A stretch of DNA of 37,702 bases. Source: Ruminococcus sp. (GTDB lineage: Bacteria; Bacillota; Clostridia; Oscillospirales; Ruminococcaceae). A model generated the notes under the pieces. The model saw only the letters and a list, made by a program, of their open reading frames with translations. It made no database searches and was not told the origin of the DNA. This document shows, one piece after another, positions 3,380-37,702 of the stretch (position 1 is its first letter; every line of letters starts with the position of its first letter). Position numbers and translations under genes: made by a program. Where the stretch lies: contig JAFRXL010000004.1 in NCBI GenBank assembly GCA_017441505.1, forward strand, positions 1 through 37,702, in the 5' to 3' direction.

Positions 3380-4345
3380 ATGATCCCATTTGAATTAAAA
3401 GCAACCATAAAAGATTACATCTGGGGCGGAACAAAGCTCCGTGAGATATTTGGCAAAGAGAGCGAGCTTGAAAGACTTGCTGAAAGCTGGGAGCTTTCCT
3501 GTCATCCGGACGGCGAAAGTGTTATAGCTTCCGGTGAATATGCAGGAATGACACTCACTCAGTTCCTGAAAGAACATCCGGAAGCTATGGGAACTTCATG
3601 CAGTAATGTTGATGAATTTCCTGTGCTTGTAAAGCTGATAGACGCTAAAAATGATCTTTCGATACAGGTGCATCCGGAAGACAGCTATGCAAGAGTTCAC
3701 GAAAACGATAATGGTAAAACAGAAATGTGGTACATTATCGATGCAGAAGAGGGAGCAGAGCTTGTCTACGGTTTCAAAGCTGAGCTTACTAAGGATGAGT
3801 TCAAAGAAGCTATAGAGAACAATACACTCATGGACAAGCTGAATCGTGTACCGGTCAAAAAAGGGGACGTATTCTTCATAAATCCGGGTACTCTTCATGC
3901 GATAGGCAAGGGAATACTTATTGCTGAGATACAGCAGAGCTCAAATGTAACTTACAGAGTTTACGATTATGGACGTTTAGGTGCTGACGGAAAGCCAAGA
4001 CAGCTCCACGTTGAAAAGGCACTGGAAGTAACAAAACTCGGACCGGCAGAAGAATATAAGCTTCCGGCTCCCGATACAGCCGGTGAAGAACTTACTGTTC
4101 AGCAGCTTGCAGACTGCAAGTTCTTCCGTGTATTCAGATTTGATATGACAGATGAAAACGGCGAATTATGGTTCAACGAAGCTTGTCCGTCATTCCAGCA
4201 TATACTCGTACTTGACGGAAGCTGTCAGCTCGTATGCGGAGGAAGTATGCTCCCGCTGAAAAAAGGTTCAAGTGTTTTTGTTCCGGCTGGAGCAGATGCA
4301 TTTAATATCACAGGAAAATGCAGTATGATAATAACTACTGTTTAA
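3380..4345 (+). CDS. manA: Mannose-6-phosphate isomerase, class I
   Basis: This enzyme interconverts mannose 6-phosphate and fructose 6-phosphate. At 321 residues it is the short form usual in Firmicutes. The zinc ligands are visible: Q96 and H98 in SIQVHPED, E115 in GKTEMWY, and H173 in NPGTLHAIG. The RVYDYGR motif near residue 195 is typical of the family. It lies in a tight row with the GH25 gene upstream and glucokinase 18 bases downstream, so the two sugar-phosphate enzymes are probably co-expressed. This fits a bacterium that takes up mannose, glucose and cellodextrins from plant mannan and cellulose. Confidence 0.96.
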   Translation: MIPFELKATIKDYIWGGTKLREIFGKESELERLAESWELSCHPDGESVIASGEYAGMTLTQFLKEHPEAMGTSCSNVDEFPVLVKLIDAKNDLSIQVHPEDSYARVHENDNGKTEMWYIIDAEEGAELVYGFKAELTKDEFKEAIENNTLMDKLNRVPVKKGDVFFINPGTLHAIGKGILIAEIQQSSNVTYRVYDYGRLGADGKPRQLHVEKALEVTKLGPAEEYKLPAPDTAGEELTVQQLADCKFFRVFRFDMTDENGELWFNEACPSFQHILVLDGSCQLVCGGSMLPLKKGSSVFVPAGADAFNITGKCSMIITTV

Positions 4346-31102: not shown

Positions 31103-33322
31103 TTATTTTTTAATATTTTCGTCAAAAACGTCCTGAAGCTTTTCCGGCGGCATAGGTTTTCCGTAGAGGAATCCCTGAGCATAATCACATCCAGCCATTC
31201 GGAGTATGGACTCCTGAACGTTGTTTTCGATACCCTCAGCTATAGTTTCTATCTTTTTGGACTTTGCTATTCTTATAACGGCAGAAACTATTTCATAAGC
31301 GATATTATCATGCTCAATATCGGTTATGAAAGAGCGGTCGAGTTTGAGCAGGGTTATCGGGAGTATCTGGAGATAGCTCAGTGACGAATAACCTGTACCG
31401 AAATCGTCCATAGCGAGCTTTACTCCGAGCTCACGAAGCTTGTTCATCTGAGAAACAGCAAAATCTATATCGTTGAGGGCGAGGCTCTCTGTAAGTTCGA
31501 CTTCAAGCCACTGAGGTTCAAGACCGGATTTAGCAAGAGCGTCAAAGACTTTTTCTTTCAGGTCGGACTGGTAGAAGTCGGCTGAGGTGAAGTTTATGGA
31601 CATTACAATATTTGGGTAGCCCATTTTCTGCCAGAGCTTATTCTGACGGCAGCCCTCATTGAGTACGAACTCGCTTATCTTGCTGATAAGGTGACTTCTT
31701 TCAGCGATAGGCACGAAAGCATCCGGACTGATTATAGAGCCGTCCGGCTTTATCCAGCGGATAAGAGCCTCAACGCCCATCAGCTTGCCGGTAGCAAGAT
31801 TGATCTTAGGCTGATAGAAGAGCTGGAGCTCATTATTTTCAATAGCAAGTCCGAGAGCTTTTTCAAGTTCGGTATTGCCGATGATAGAGTCGTGCATACT
31901 TGGCTCATAAGCACATATAACGCCCTGATTTCCTGTGCTGGATTTGAGGGCAAACTCTGCGTGTTCCATAACATCGAGGAATGAGCTTCCGTCGTCCGGC
32001 ATTCTGGAATATCCGGCTGAGCAGTTCAGGTTAATTGAAGCGAGCTCGTCGACAGCGAGCTGAGCGAATTCCTCCTGAATGGAACGAACTGTACGGACAG
32101 GGAGCTCATTATCGCCGTAGTCTTTGAGGATAAGAGCGAAATTATCTCCGCTGACTCTTGCGGCAAGTCCTCCGGGAGTAACGAATTTATAGAGGATATG
32201 AGCGAAATTCTTCAAAACGTAGTTACCGTTCTTGTAGCCGCAGGTATCATTTATGATATGGAATCGGTCAATATCGAGGACTATTATCCAGTATGAATAA
32301 TCAAGGAGGTGGCAGGTATCGTATATCTCCTGACCTGCATCCATGAGCTTATTGCGGTTAGCGATCTCGGTGACTTCATCTATATAAGCGAGACGCTCAA
32401 TGAGGATGTCCTTTTCGTGCTCCTGAGTAATGTCGAGGATAGCTCCTCCGAAGAGCGGCAGGGTGTTGTCGGTACCCTTTATAGACTTATAGCGGTAAGA
32501 GTACCAGCGGTAGACTCCGCCGACTGACTTTATACGCATCTCAATGCTCTTTACTTCGGAAGTGTCTTTTGATTTAACGGCACTGTCAAACTGTATCCTG
32601 TCGTTAGGATGAACGAGTGACCGGAATTCACTTAAAGTTATAGCACTGTTCTTTAGTCCGAGCATTCTTATCATTTCCGGTGAAGCACGGAAATTTTTTC
32701 TGTCGGAGCTCATGATAACACCTATTTCTGCGAGCTCCATTGAGGAATTGAAGAAGTCGTTTGCACTTGCAAGGTTGACTTTCATCTTCTTTATTTCGGT
32801 CAGGTTGAAACCGGTACTCAGGTAAAGCGAGTGCTTTTTCCTTTTTTTAACAAGGGAAGTACTCCATGCTATAGAGGTAACGGTACCGGCTGAATTCTTG
32901 AATCTTGTCTCGTAAGACTGGTTGCCTATTATTTTTTCAAACTCACCGTTGTCGTGAGAGTTCATACCAAATGCTTTGAGGACGGCAGATTTTTTATTGG
33001 AATCGCCCTCGGAAACTCCAAGAAGATCACGTATCTTCCTGTTCATGAAAATATATGAGAAATCGTCGCTCCATATTATCATCTCAGTGTTGAGGTCTTC
33101 TGTTATCTTGACTATCTCGGATTCTCCGACTGAGCTGCCATATCTTTTATATATCCAGCTTATTAGAGTGAGTATGATAGACATGAATATGATAGAAGAA
33201 ACATAGACGATGATAGTCGGCATTGCCTGCTCAGGGAAGTAGAAGCAATAAGCTACGACAACTGCGGTGGCGGCTGTGATAACGAGAGTCGCTGCCAAAG
33301 GGTTGAAAGTATTCTTTTTCAA
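31103..33322 (-). CDS. Membrane PAS/degenerate-GGDEF/EAL protein, likely c-di-GMP phosphodiesterase
   Basis: The 739-residue protein has two N-terminal helices (about 10-30 and 36-57), two PAS-like regions (about 75-180 and 190-305), a GGDEF domain (about 308-470) and an EAL domain (about 482-730). The GGDEF site reads SGDNF (391-395) and is probably inactive as a cyclase. The EAL site looks complete: VEAL (517-520), N577, E612 (ELTES), DDFGTGYSS (639-647), K660 and D662 (KLDRS), E696 (EGIEN) and QGFLYGKP. It should hydrolyse c-di-GMP in response to a PAS-sensed signal. The start is TTG, eight bases after AGGAGG. It is divergent from the two-component system. Confidence 0.92.
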   Translation of the reverse strand: MKKNTFNPLAATLVITAATAVVVAYCFYFPEQAMPTIIVYVSSIIFMSIILTLISWIYKRYGSSVGESEIVKITEDLNTEMIIWSDDFSYIFMNRKIRDLLGVSEGDSNKKSAVLKAFGMNSHDNGEFEKIIGNQSYETRFKNSAGTVTSIAWSTSLVKKRKKHSLYLSTGFNLTEIKKMKVNLASANDFFNSSMELAEIGVIMSSDRKNFRASPEMIRMLGLKNSAITLSEFRSLVHPNDRIQFDSAVKSKDTSEVKSIEMRIKSVGGVYRWYSYRYKSIKGTDNTLPLFGGAILDITQEHEKDILIERLAYIDEVTEIANRNKLMDAGQEIYDTCHLLDYSYWIIVLDIDRFHIINDTCGYKNGNYVLKNFAHILYKFVTPGGLAARVSGDNFALILKDYGDNELPVRTVRSIQEEFAQLAVDELASINLNCSAGYSRMPDDGSSFLDVMEHAEFALKSSTGNQGVICAYEPSMHDSIIGNTELEKALGLAIENNELQLFYQPKINLATGKLMGVEALIRWIKPDGSIISPDAFVPIAERSHLISKISEFVLNEGCRQNKLWQKMGYPNIVMSINFTSADFYQSDLKEKVFDALAKSGLEPQWLEVELTESLALNDIDFAVSQMNKLRELGVKLAMDDFGTGYSSLSYLQILPITLLKLDRSFITDIEHDNIAYEIVSAVIRIAKSKKIETIAEGIENNVQESILRMAGCDYAQGFLYGKPMPPEKLQDVFDENIKK

Positions 33323-33431: not shown

Positions 33432-33482
33432 AACAAGAATTTTTCATGAAATGAACACATTTGCATGATAAAATGTTATAAT
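33432..33482 (+). promoter_or_regulatory. Promoter region of the two-component operon, with OmpR-type boxes
   Basis: Hexamers AACAAG, TTCATG, AACACA and ATGATA start every 11 bases from 33432. AAATGAACACATT (33449-33461) is identical to 35793-35805. TAAAAT (33469-33474) lies nine bases after AACACA, the same distance as in the second promoter; TATAAT at 33477-33482 is another possible -10 box. No good -35 box is present, as expected of an activator-dependent promoter. Autoregulation is inferred. Confidence 0.5.
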
Positions 33483-33566: not shown

Positions 33567-34244
33567 ATGGCACATATTCTTGTAGTAGACGATGAGATAA
33601 ATATACGAAAAGTGGTAAGGGAGTATGCTGAATTTGAAGGCTTTGAAGTTACCGAAGCTGAAAACGGCATGGAAGCTGTAAGCTTATGTCATAATAATGA
33701 CTATGACCTTATAATAATGGATGTAATGATGCCTCGTCTTGACGGTTATTCCGCTTGCAAGGAGATACACAAAACAAAGCATATCCCTGTGATAATGCTG
33801 TCTGCAAGAGGTGAGGAGTACGATAAGCTCTTTGGATTTGAGATAGGCGTTGACGATTACGTAGTAAAGCCGTTTTCTCCAAAGGAGCTCATGGCGAGAG
33901 TAAAAGTTGTGCTGAAGCGGAATTCAAGACCTGCTGAAACTTCTCAGCCTGACAGATACGTGTTTGAGGGACTTGAAGTCGATATATCCGGCAGAGAGGT
34001 CTATGTCAATGGAGAAAAAGCTTCCATGACTCCAAAGGAGTACGACCTTCTGTTCTATCTTGTAAAAAACAAGAATATAGCTCTTTCAAGGGACAAGCTT
34101 CTTGAAGAGGTATGGGGCTATGATTTCTTTGGTGACGATCGAACTGTTGATACTCATATAAAAATGCTCAGAAACAGTCTTGGGGAGTACAGAAAGTTTA
34201 TCGTTACACTGAGAGGAATGGGATATAAGTTTGAAGCTAATTAA
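33567..34244 (+). CDS. OmpR/PhoB-family response regulator
   Basis: The 225-residue protein has a receiver domain (1-120) with acidic D8 and D9, phospho-acceptor D52 (IIMDVMMP), S79 and K101 (VVKPFSP). A winged-helix DNA-binding domain follows (about 128-225), with MTPKEYDLLFYLVKNKN and DRTVDTHIKMLRNSLG and ending RGMGYKFE. AACGGAGG precedes the ATG. The kinase gene overlaps its end. The stimulus is unknown; naming it PhoP would go beyond the sequence. Candidate binding sites lie upstream of this gene, at the EAL promoter and after the kinase gene. Confidence 0.96.
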   Translation: MAHILVVDDEINIRKVVREYAEFEGFEVTEAENGMEAVSLCHNNDYDLIIMDVMMPRLDGYSACKEIHKTKHIPVIMLSARGEEYDKLFGFEIGVDDYVVKPFSPKELMARVKVVLKRNSRPAETSQPDRYVFEGLEVDISGREVYVNGEKASMTPKEYDLLFYLVKNKNIALSRDKLLEEVWGYDFFGDDRTVDTHIKMLRNSLGEYRKFIVTLRGMGYKFEAN

Positions 34245-35661
34245 GAAAGCAAAGAGTTTCAACAGCAGGATACCGCTTAAATTCAAGATATGGATGTATT
34301 TTATCCTGTTTACTATTGTTGTATTCGTCCTGCTATGGACTTTCCAGATATTATTCCTTGAAAAATTTTACGAGGGAATGAAGGTCAGAGACGCTGCTGA
34401 TTGTGCAAAGAAAATTTCGGACTCGTATACAACTATGGACAAAAAAGAATTCCGTGAACTGCTCAGTGAAGAAGCCGTGGAAAACGACCTTTGCGTTGAA
34501 GTCCTTGACAGGTACGGAAGGTCACTGTATTCTGAAAATGTCCTCGGTGACTGCCTCATACACGGACGTGAAAATACTACATTTACTTATATAACGGATA
34601 TACTCAAAAGTGACGATAAAGAGATAAGGTACAGGGTGACTAATCCACGCACTCATTACAATATGCTCTTGTACGGATGTGTTCTTGGTGACCCTGATAA
34701 GCCGGACGGCTTTTTGCTCCTTAATGCGGCACTTGTACCTGTAGGCTCAACAGTGTCCATCATAAAGCGTCAGCTCATGATAATCACGGCGTTTCTTATA
34801 GTTATAGCATTCGTAATATCGCTCTTCCTTTCAAGGATAATAGCACGTCCGATAACGAGGATAACAAAATCAGCTGAAAAACTTGCAAAAGGTGATTTTG
34901 ATACCAAATTCGACGGAAGAGGATACCTTGAATCGAAAATGCTTGCGGATACTCTGACATATGCTGAGGAGGAGATCTCAAGGGTCGATACCATGCAGAG
35001 GGATCTTATCGCAAATGTTTCTCATGACCTGAGAACTCCGCTAACTATGCTTAAAGCCTATGCGGAGATGATACGTGACCTCTCGGGCGATAATCCGGTC
35101 AAGCGTAATGAGCATCTTGAAATAATAATCAATGAAACTGACCGTCTTGCACTTCTTGTCAATGACATACTCGATCTTTCAAAGCTTGAAAGCGGCAGAC
35201 AGAAGCTCAATCCTACAGAATTCGGTATAAGCGGAAAACTCAGCGAGATAATCGACCGCTTTAAAGGAATATCCGAAAAACAGGGGTATACGATCCATTT
35301 CACACCTGATGAGGATGTGACGGTATGCTGTGATGTCGTGAAAATAGAGCAGGTCATATATAATCTTATAAACAATGCGATAAACTATACCGGCAAGGAT
35401 AAGCAGGTATTCGTGCGTCAGATCAATAAGCCTGAGGGAGTTCTGATCGAAGTAGAAGATACCGGTGACGGCATAGAAGAAGAGAAGATAAAGCTCATTT
35501 TCGATAAGTATTACCGCTCTGAGAACCACAAGCGTGAGGTGGTCGGCACCGGTCTGGGACTTTCAATAGTGAAGGCTGTGCTCAAACTTCATAATTATGA
35601 TTATGGTGTAAAGAGTACACTTGGAAAGGGGTCAACGTTCTGGTTTATCATTAAAACATGA
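34231..35661 (+). CDS. Sensor histidine kinase with extracellular domain and HAMP
   Basis: The 476-residue kinase has helix 1 (about 20-43), an extracellular sensor of about 135 residues that I do not recognise, helix 2 (about 181-204), a HAMP linker, the dimerisation/phosphorylation region VSHDLRTPL (H265) and an ATP-binding domain with NLINNAINYT, DTGDGI, YYRSE and GTGLGLSIVKAV. It should phosphorylate the upstream regulator. The likely start is TTG, overlapping the regulator gene by 14 bases; the first in-frame ATG would remove most of helix 1. No clear terminator follows, so transcription may run on into the small-RNA region. Confidence 0.94.
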   Translation: MKLIKKAKSFNSRIPLKFKIWMYFILFTIVVFVLLWTFQILFLEKFYEGMKVRDAADCAKKISDSYTTMDKKEFRELLSEEAVENDLCVEVLDRYGRSLYSENVLGDCLIHGRENTTFTYITDILKSDDKEIRYRVTNPRTHYNMLLYGCVLGDPDKPDGFLLLNAALVPVGSTVSIIKRQLMIITAFLIVIAFVISLFLSRIIARPITRITKSAEKLAKGDFDTKFDGRGYLESKMLADTLTYAEEEISRVDTMQRDLIANVSHDLRTPLTMLKAYAEMIRDLSGDNPVKRNEHLEIIINETDRLALLVNDILDLSKLESGRQKLNPTEFGISGKLSEIIDRFKGISEKQGYTIHFTPDEDVTVCCDVVKIEQVIYNLINNAINYTGKDKQVFVRQINKPEGVLIEVEDTGDGIEEEKIKLIFDKYYRSENHKREVVGTGLGLSIVKAVLKLHNYDYGVKSTLGKGSTFWFIIKT

Positions 35662-35764
35662 GATTTTTTTCTTTGAGCCTTAAAAAAGGTCATATGAATA
35701 TCATATGAGTATATGTGATAAAAACACAATATTCCCTGTATTTCGGCACAAAGCGTCTTAAATA

Positions 35765-35818
35765 TTAACTGAATTTTAATAATTCTATCACAAAATGAAC
35801 ACATTAGTAGGGTATACT
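35765..35818 (+). promoter_or_regulatory. OmpR/PhoB-type regulated promoter after the kinase gene
   Basis: TTAACT, TTAATA, ATCACA and AACACA start at 35765, 35776, 35787 and 35798, exactly 11 bases apart. TATACT (35813-35818) is the -10 box, nine bases after the last hexamer. There is no TTGACA. Two stretches (12 and 13 bases) are identical to the regions in front of the response regulator gene. The preceding bases 35662-35760 hold only two near-copies of CATATGARTAT and no gene. Confidence 0.6.
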
Positions 35819-35823
35819 ATAGA

Positions 35824-35956
35824 TGCTGAGGGAGAAATCCCAAAGCTGATTTTCATGGTAGTTTAATGTTTACCCCAACATTAAATTATTTTTAAATCCC
35901 CAATAATCCCTATATCATGGCAGATGAGCTTCCTGAAGAGGAGGCTCGTTTGTTTT
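35824..35956 (+). ncRNA. Candidate regulator-controlled small RNA (~130 nt)
   Basis: Between the regulated promoter and a terminator lies a segment without a convincing ORF but with clear structure. A first hairpin, GGGA-GAAA-TCCC, has a GNRA loop and an outer GCT/AGC pairing. A second hairpin has a perfect 9-bp stem (35862-35870 with 35877-35885) and the loop TACCCC. A single-stranded AATCCCCAATAATCCC follows, then the terminator hairpin. Exposed CCCC runs are typical of Firmicute sRNAs that pair with Shine-Dalgarno sequences. The next gene, metK, has its own promoter and riboswitch, so this is not its leader. I do not recognise the RNA. Confidence 0.55.
35926..35956 (+). terminator. Terminator of the candidate small RNA
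   Basis: GAGC-T-TCCT and AGGA-G-GCTC pair (one G-U) around the loop GAAG and are followed by GTTTGTTTT. Bases 35957-36076 up to the metK promoter are AT-rich, without a gene. Confidence 0.7.
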
Positions 35957-36076: not shown

Positions 36077-36105
36077 TTGACAAAACCTTTAAACGAGTAT
36101 ATAAT
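36077..36105 (+). promoter_or_regulatory. Promoter of the SAM riboswitch and metK
   Basis: TTGACA (36077-36082) and TATAAT (36100-36105) are 17 bases apart, a perfect consensus. The transcript would start a few bases before the riboswitch P1 helix. Confidence 0.9.
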
Positions 36106-36116
36106 ATACACATAAC

Positions 36117-36268
36117 CTTATCAAGAGTGGCGGAGGAAACAGGTCCTGTGAAGCCCGGCAACCTGACTGGTAATCAGACAAGGTGCTAAATCCTGCGGTT
36201 TATCCGGAAGATGAGGAGTTTTGATGAAAAACAGAGCATTCCGGTAAGGAATGCTCTTATTTTTTTAG
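36117..36268 (+). promoter_or_regulatory. SAM-I riboswitch (S-box) controlling metK
   Basis: P1 pairs CTTATC with GATGAG (ending at 36215). The core has AAGAGTGGCGGAGG, AAGCCCGGCAACC and AAGGTGCTAAATCCTGC, all hallmark S-box sequences. The aptamer runs about 36117-36215 and the expression platform to 36268. With SAM bound, the terminator forms and metK is switched off: feedback on SAM synthesis. Confidence 0.97.
36233..36268 (+). terminator. Riboswitch-controlled terminator before metK
   Basis: The 10-bp arms AGAGCATTCC and GGAATGCTCT enclose a five-base loop and are followed by TATTTTTTT. The metK ribosome binding site AGGAGG follows at once. Confidence 0.92.
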
Positions 36269-37599: not shown

Positions 37600-37702
37600 A
37601 TGCTGAGAGAAAACAAAGCAGAGCGAGAGCAGATGGAAATGGTATGTATAGAGGGAATGGTACCGAAAGATCATATACTTAGAAAAATAGACTCGGCAAT
37701 AG
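37600..37702 (+). CDS. IS1182-type transposase, N-terminal fragment (cut by the window end)
   Basis: The 34 visible residues contain VCIEGMVPKDHILRKIDSAI, which matches the start of IS1182-family (IS5-like DDE) transposases. AAGGGAG lies upstream of the ATG. The rest of the gene and the right end of the element are outside the window, so intactness cannot be judged. The left terminal inverted repeat is not identified with certainty. Confidence 0.75.
   Translation, partial: MLRENKAEREQMEMVCIEGMVPKDHILRKIDSAI

Follow-up and report, generated by a model that had tools for sequence, protein, structure and literature searches.

What is encoded in the stretch of about 130 nucleotides that lies between a sensor kinase gene and metK in this Ruminococcus contig? 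The sequence-only reading of the window (the whole stretch of DNA analysed, 37,702 nt) had proposed a small RNA (sRNA) that is induced by the adjacent two-component system and represses mRNAs with G-rich ribosome binding sites. We followed up both parts of this proposal by comparison within the genus, the family and the order. The features of the locus are listed in Table 1.

Table 1. Features of the regulator/kinase, sRNA and metK region, in window positions.
Feature	Position	Strand	Remarks
Box-type promoter of the regulator/kinase operon	33443–33474	+	TTCATGAAATGAACACATTTGCATGATAAAAT; has AAATGAACACATT in common with the sRNA promoter
OmpR/PhoB-type response regulator gene	33567–34244	+	Response_reg and Trans_reg_C domains
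Sensor histidine kinase gene	34231–35661	+	HAMP, HisKA and HATPase_c domains
Four hexamers, putative regulator sites	35764–35802	+	ATTAAC 35764–35769, TTTAAT 35775–35780, TATCAC 35786–35791, GAACAC 35797–35802; exact 11-bp steps; proximal two conserved
-10 box of the sRNA	35813–35818	+	TATACT
Predicted small RNA gene	35824–35956	+	Ends placed from the -10 box and the terminator
5' hairpin	35825–35846	+	Differs between species
Hairpin 2	35857–35890	+	14 bp; loop UACCCC at 35871–35876; covarying
Near-invariant, mostly single-stranded core	35896–35919	+	ATCCCCAATAATCCCTATATCATG
Intrinsic terminator stem-loop	35919–35954	+	Followed by a T-rich run; stem covaries
metK promoter	36077–36105		TTGACA-17-TATAAT; own to metK
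metK SAM riboswitch	36115–36217	+	Separate transcription unit

When related genomes are compared, the segment looks like a real small-RNA gene. BLASTN finds a match in 107 of the 125 genus genomes, its own included, and in 64 of the 68 with completeness of 90% or more and contamination of 5% or less; a covariance model adds one of the 18 genomes missed (G110), which brings the total to 108/125. By both methods the sRNA is absent from 17 of the 125 genomes, four of them among the 68 of high quality. The 24-nt core is identical in 103 of 106 genus loci (from 107 loci, one per genome, with the stray hit L108 excluded and L105, which has an N in the core, untestable), and it is found without change beside kinases of just 53–57% identity. 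With these counts and the covarying hairpin described below, the proposed sRNA gene beside the kinase is borne out, and conservation next to the same kinase together with a C-rich loop, on which the sequence-only reading had staked its case beforehand, is found in most relatives.

Exact copies of the 24-mer also occur in at least 118 stretches of named genome contigs, a set that overlaps with the genus genomes, so that the two counts are not additive. The titles of these records name Ruminococcus, Oscillospiraceae, Clostridium, other Clostridia and two MAGs labelled Alistipes, and the strains of R. flavefaciens among them include FD-1, ND2009, YL228, YRD2003, MC2020, XPD3002 and SAb67. At the level of the family, model R1 matches 49 of 396 genomes, in 13 of 126 genera; 11 of these 49 matches score below 35 bits, and the one of them that was read (L261 of G126) keeps the pattern. 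An order-wide draw of 394 genomes gave nine matches, five of which are weak (27–34 bits), lie outside the family and are not counted. The RNA is far rarer than relatives of the kinase, which, paralogues included, are present in 141 of 197 family genomes at 1e-60.

No Rfam family reaches its gathering score in the sRNA and a permissive scan returned chance hits only, which speaks against a known Rfam family; in eight related loci, the Rfam scan gave the SAM riboswitch alone. As regards an origin from mobile elements, no match to the sRNA was found in the phage and plasmid collections. From the comparison with Rfam, the sRNA is a new family of a known kind, and our search of the open-access literature found no paper on this RNA or on regulatory RNAs of Ruminococcus or Oscillospiraceae. 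A lone copy of the core that carries two changes is located at 3599–3627 of L108 (contig C150 of G061), a 5-kb contig that has no kinase; this copy has neither hairpin 2 nor a matching terminator, and we suggest reading it as a relic or a binding site.

Folding of the 135-nt RNA returns the three hairpins and the terminator noted from the sequence (minimum free energy -47.9 kcal/mol, z -5.84, none of 200 shuffles being equally stable), with 16 pairs in the terminator. An extra 5-bp helix, formed by 35848–35852 with 35894–35898, encloses hairpin 2 and takes up the first letters of the core, which is otherwise unpaired in the window copy. The stem with the TACCCC loop has 14 bp and is thus longer than the 9 bp originally assigned to it. 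In a gapless set of 38 distinct sequences (A2, drawn from 41 with a 6-nt loop; L057, the second copy of L093 and L151 were left out as their outer stem does not line up), 10 of the 14 pairs of hairpin 2 show double changes, and 90.8% of the cells pair, against 78.8% in shuffled and at most 50.7% in slid controls. The number of pairs with double changes was reached by 27 of 500 shuffles and the other measures by none, and the loop sequence ACCCC is invariant across the set.

In the mixed alignment A1 (61 of 69 representatives, the eight left out including types without hairpin 2), RNAalifold found the terminator as the sole structure, with covariation at seven of eight predicted pairs, individual pairs being broken or gapped in up to 19 of the 61 sequences. 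We think that hairpin 2 was missed because it is misaligned between clades of differing loop length. A script found no hairpin-2 stem of at least 7 bp in 36 of 236 copies tested. Inspected by eye, some of these 36 have just one mismatched pair, the hairpin is missing from ten (L089–L092, L094, L095 and the named counterparts L126, L131, L188 and L189), the loop is absent from L062/L187, and one is the stray copy L108. Core and terminator are retained where the ACCCC hairpin is lost (L089–L092, L094, L095 and the named copies L188 and L189), and the hairpin-less genomes include R. flavefaciens MC2020 and YRD2003.

In 104 of 106 genus loci the kinase precedes the sRNA in the same orientation. 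Its alignment ends at most 500 nt from the core in 96 of these 104, the distance being 949 nt in five loci, and the median distance to the sRNA is 188 nt. Such proximity would also be expected if the segment were a 3' fragment processed from the kinase mRNA, or just a conserved terminator region, with no promoter of its own. We regard this as very unlikely: the TATAAT and the 11-bp boxes of the segment are themselves conserved, and RNA and boxes stay together where the arrangement is disrupted, be it by a HAD-type hydrolase ORF (identified by eye) between kinase and sRNA in L225 (R. flavefaciens SAb67), by inversion of the sRNA at ~2 kb from the kinase in L060, or by a distance of ~13 kb to the best kinase match in genus g6 (G129). 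The retention of the boxes in these three situations suggests that the sRNA is its own unit.

Likewise, metK follows the sRNA in the window and in part of the relatives only, a position that a cis-acting leader RNA of metK would occupy. Between the two, however, lie a strong terminator and the separate promoter and SAM riboswitch of metK, both of which had been recognized from the sequence and are recovered here, and many of the 8-kb loci carry no metK, or carry it on the other strand, with the kinase present (some of these contigs end early). We reject the leader reading on these grounds and give it next to no weight. As judged from these genome comparisons, the sRNA is an independent unit that is tied to the kinase and is not part of metK.

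Two further genes of the window deserve mention. Divergent from the regulator gene lies a gene for a PAS-GGDEF-EAL protein (31103–33322, - strand), and since a relative of it is present in 65 of 77 loci (L031–L107), c-di-GMP may be linked to the regulator/kinase system. An ORF truncated by the end of the window (37600–37702, + strand) begins with MLRENKAEREQMEMVCIEGMVPKDHILRKID, which we take to resemble the start of a transposase.

The proposed control by the adjacent regulator can be assessed from the promoters. The four hexamers at 11-bp spacing before the -10 box were confirmed, the proximal two being the conserved ones. A -10 box can be placed in 136 of the 138 non-redundant sequences. 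Relative to it, 62 promoters have a CACA starting at -13 and 54 have one at -24, with 0.44 expected per offset; the distal boxes are rarer (13 promoters with CACA at -35, 14 with CACA at -46). Some of the further registers, at -22 (21), -18 (18) and -29 (14), may reflect a wrongly placed -10. TTGACA was not seen in the sRNA promoter alignments examined, where the boxes fill the -35 region, an arrangement found at promoters dependent on a PhoB/CiaR-type activator. The search pattern TTCACA-N5-TTCACA-N9-TATAAT, with up to four mismatches, precedes the regulator gene in 60 of 69 loci, against none of 69 base-shuffled regions; the regulator promoter of the window, with five mismatches, falls outside these 60. 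This common layout of boxes and TATAAT favours the earlier proposal, and control of the sRNA by the adjacent two-component system is, on comparative grounds, well supported, not proven.

With up to two mismatches, the pattern has 182 sites across 60 genus genomes, a count that includes the promoters of sRNA and regulator, compared to 8 for the reversed control. Downstream genes were assigned by reading the first ORF after each site. panB follows the box promoter in nine of 30 listed loci (L335, L336, L340, L341, L344–L346, L348 and L362) and additionally in L383, cinA in L354, L363 and L378, the regulator gene itself in L358 and L364, and a gene for a Cthe_2159-type protein in L375 and, by eye, in L338 and L377. 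The promoter in L364 belongs to G063, a genome of high quality that has no sRNA match and retains the box promoter before its regulator gene. A gene for an HtrA/DegP-type protease follows in L342 and in L330 (13461–14825), which lies on contig C19 of the genome of the window itself, G000. Among ten sites chosen for likeness to L330 and L342, nine precede HtrA-type genes (L365–L373) and the tenth, L374, precedes what is by eye a coaD-like gene; in most, the htrA box promoter reads T[GC]CAAATT...TTTCACA...TATAAT. The families were confirmed with Pfam in L330, L365 and L370 (HtrA) as well as in L375, L378 and L383, and the remaining pattern sites precede single or unidentified genes. A link of the signalling system to coenzyme A synthesis, as the panB and coaD-like sites might imply, would be unexpected. 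The comparison gives strong evidence for a single regulator acting on the sRNA, on htrA and on the regulator/kinase operon; the pattern sites could also be bound by another, related OmpR-type regulator.

The absence of a convincing ORF, also part of the initial description, agrees with the wider set: an ORF with a Shine-Dalgarno (SD)-like word and an ATG is missing from the RNA region in 119 of the 138 non-redundant sequences. A dual-function RNA that encodes a small protein would be in line with the ATG that ends the core in 135 of the 138 and that starts a 38-aa ORF in the window. This ATG, however, is not preceded by an SD in the window, and its frame enters the terminator stem, which is variable in sequence and length. 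Moreover, ATCATG at the end of the core reads ATCATA in some divergent genera, which makes the core ATG unlikely as a start codon. For these reasons we reject a coding function, which we find scarcely credible.

The second part of the proposal, that mRNAs with G-rich ribosome binding sites are repressed, is not supported. We used 490 of the 544 start regions predicted from 676 kb (~30%) of G000, from ORFs of at least 100 codons with heuristic starts and an SD score of at least 4. Core duplexes of -12 kcal/mol or below number 60, against 99 ± 21 in 60 dinucleotide shuffles, every one of which reaches 60. At -14 there are 28 versus 44 ± 13 (54 of the 60 shuffles reach the real count), at -16 there are 15 versus 18 ± 8 (34 of 60), and Watson-Crick runs of at least 7 number 64 versus 101 ± 18. 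The core fits the common AGGAGG poorly. Since it forms fewer duplexes with the start regions than shuffled sequences do, the core does not behave as a general anti-SD, and we do not favour generic anti-SD action. Scans of 60 genomes for seeds combined with an SD and an ATG gave 62 matches versus 82, and 87 versus 139, the reversed controls being higher. At the 60 loci listed from these scans, the matching ATG opens 21 ORFs of 40 aa or more, one of them antisense to the sRNA; no two of the 21 are related (BLASTP, 1e-5), and a recurrent target was not found among them. Nor do the start regions of the regulator, kinase, metK, GGDEF/EAL, panB, htrA and cinA genes (3 to 25 sequences each) pair better with the core than with shuffled cores, of which 48–97 out of 100 base-shuffled versions pair equally well or better.

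Longer complements were searched as well. In six genomes, the reverse complement of 20 bases of the core (up to three mismatches allowed) turned up only within the gene and at one further place, in G037, with three mismatches, which speaks against a single target with a long duplex (rRNA, tRNA or one mRNA). The reversed control yields no fewer sites; the core is near its own mirror image, with two AAUCCC-type words, and the reversed pattern thus appears to match the gene itself. A 14-base stretch of the complement (up to two mismatches, 40 genomes) has at least 500 sites, the sRNA genes themselves included, compared to 261 in the reversed control, and this excess may reflect targets or codon usage. 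The sRNA may have a few specific mRNA targets, which is the reading that we adopt. Hfq is encoded in all 18 genus genomes searched, including that of the window.

The main rival to a two-component-driven sRNA with a few specific targets is that the core and the ACCCC loop form the site of an RNA-binding protein, which would be titrated or scaffolded, as RsmY/Z do with CsrA. The near-invariance of the core, even beside strongly diverged kinases, the near-absence of its 20-base complement and the pairing below shuffles in start regions are all in line with protein binding, and conservation over 23–24 nt exceeds the usual pairing seed, which counts against a pairing model. On the other hand, no candidate protein has emerged, and many base-pairing sRNAs (Qrr, GcvB) also have long conserved unpaired regions. 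The 14-base complement is commoner than its reversed control. In addition, the C runs are of differing length in divergent genera, which would suit a pairing region: the core region reads AAATCCC-AATAATCCC in L251 and ATCCCCCAATAATCC in L261, with CCC-AAU and CCCCC...CC at the RNA level, respectively. Overall, we consider protein binding unlikely, and yet the strongest competitor of target pairing.

Second copies and more distant relatives show how the gene varies. Twelve loci (L114, L115, L135, L149, L154, L156, L167, L170, L184, L193, L212 and L213) carry a second gene ~200 nt further on, with the core AATCCCTATAATCCCTATATCATG, a hairpin loop of the CCCC/CUCC type and, by eye, its own terminator; in L093, the second copy is of the first type. 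The core was not found within four edits in 19 regions behind distant kinases (47–64% identity). Read by eye, four of these (L286, L288, L290 and L293) have the same boxes, -10 and C-rich hairpins with a different core, and CCATATCAT precedes the terminator in L288, L290 and L293, not in L286; in most of the others a gene follows directly after the kinase. As a lead obtained by eye, the four RNAs possibly belong to a wider sRNA superfamily. One speculative extension, which we hold to be doubtful, is that, across the family Oscillospiraceae, the RNA serves as effector of an envelope-stress system resembling CiaRH, and that its invariant 23-nt core acts as a recognition element for a protein or a single conserved machine (decoy or scaffold) rather than as an anti-SD antisense, with the ACCCC hairpins as repeatable modules. 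If so, distant genera would keep the position, the boxes and the hairpin modules, and the sequence of the core would change.

Gene, structure, synteny and shared promoter layout are conserved in the genomes compared, and we think it probable, if by a modest measure, that the segment specifies a trans-acting regulatory sRNA of ~130 nt as the RNA output of the adjacent two-component system. For its action we infer transcription of the segment, direct binding by the regulator, a stress signal, dependence on Hfq and a pairing mechanism. The active kinase would phosphorylate the OmpR/PhoB-type regulator, which would then bind direct repeats close to TTCACA, 11 bp apart, and recruit RNA polymerase to the sRNA promoter, to its own operon and to genes of the envelope-stress type, such as that of the HtrA protease. 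The sRNA would display the ACCCC hairpin loop and the near-invariant single-stranded core and, probably with Hfq, pair via parts of loop and core with a limited set of specific mRNAs.

In its way of working, the sRNA would be most like csRNA/CiaRH of Streptococcus or LhrC/LisRK of Listeria, and by the family features compared here it falls outside both families. CiaR is an OmpR-type regulator, and CiaRH is autoregulated. According to PMC3091779, csRNA promoters have direct hexamer repeats with N5 spacers (an 11-bp period) located 9–10 nt before the -10, csRNAs have stem-loops and a conserved unpaired region and occur in several copies, and CiaR controls the serine protease HtrA; CiaRH/csRNA is also treated in PMC8186281. 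The system described here has in common with csRNA/CiaRH an OmpR-type regulator, 11-bp direct repeats at 9 nt from the -10, htrA in the predicted regulon, a C-rich sRNA and tandem copies. Its sRNA also has its own promoter with regulator-type direct repeats common to the regulator operon. In contrast to csRNA, the gene lies directly behind its own kinase. Complementarity of the unpaired region to SD and start codon was not enriched over shuffles in the 490 start regions. The csRNA covariance model RF02379 scores 21.3 bits here (E = 2), below its gathering score of 57, and the boxes resemble TTCACA/TATCACA rather than the csRNA promoter motif NTTAAG-N5-TTTAAG at ~10 nt before the -10. Compared by eye, the CiaR recognition helix (VVEVYVSKVRKKL) differs from that of the window regulator (RTVDTHIKMLRNSLG).

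According to PMC4132741, LhrC is a multicopy sRNA that depends on a two-component system and carries C-rich motifs both in the loop of a hairpin and in a single-stranded stretch. The motif placement and the predicted two-component link are similar here. Instead of the three CUCCC(...)UUUU sites of LhrC (loop A, linker and terminator loop), the present RNA has ACCCC and UCCCC/UCCC motifs, with one C-rich site in a loop and two in the linker; the terminator loop of the window copy lacks one, and the core is long and near-invariant. No family at gathering score was found by Rfam, and none named LhrC up to E = 5.

The likeness to ResDE and RoxS is weaker than that to CiaRH/csRNA or LisRK/LhrC; RsaE/RoxS is not known to be encoded beside its two-component genes. 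According to PMC4409812, this sRNA of ResDE/SrrAB in Bacillales is two-component-induced and has conserved C-rich regions. The RNA described here differs from it in host order and sequence, and gives no Rfam match to it up to E = 5.

A long, near-invariant unpaired core with no preference for ordinary ribosome binding sites is puzzling. The analysis puts forward a specific sRNA gene that is widely conserved among Oscillospiraceae of rumen and gut, cultured R. flavefaciens strains included, together with a predicted promoter code and a predicted regulon comprising regulator/kinase, HtrA-type protease, panB and cinA. This regulon and the parallels with CiaRH and LisRK make the sRNA testable in cultured strains.
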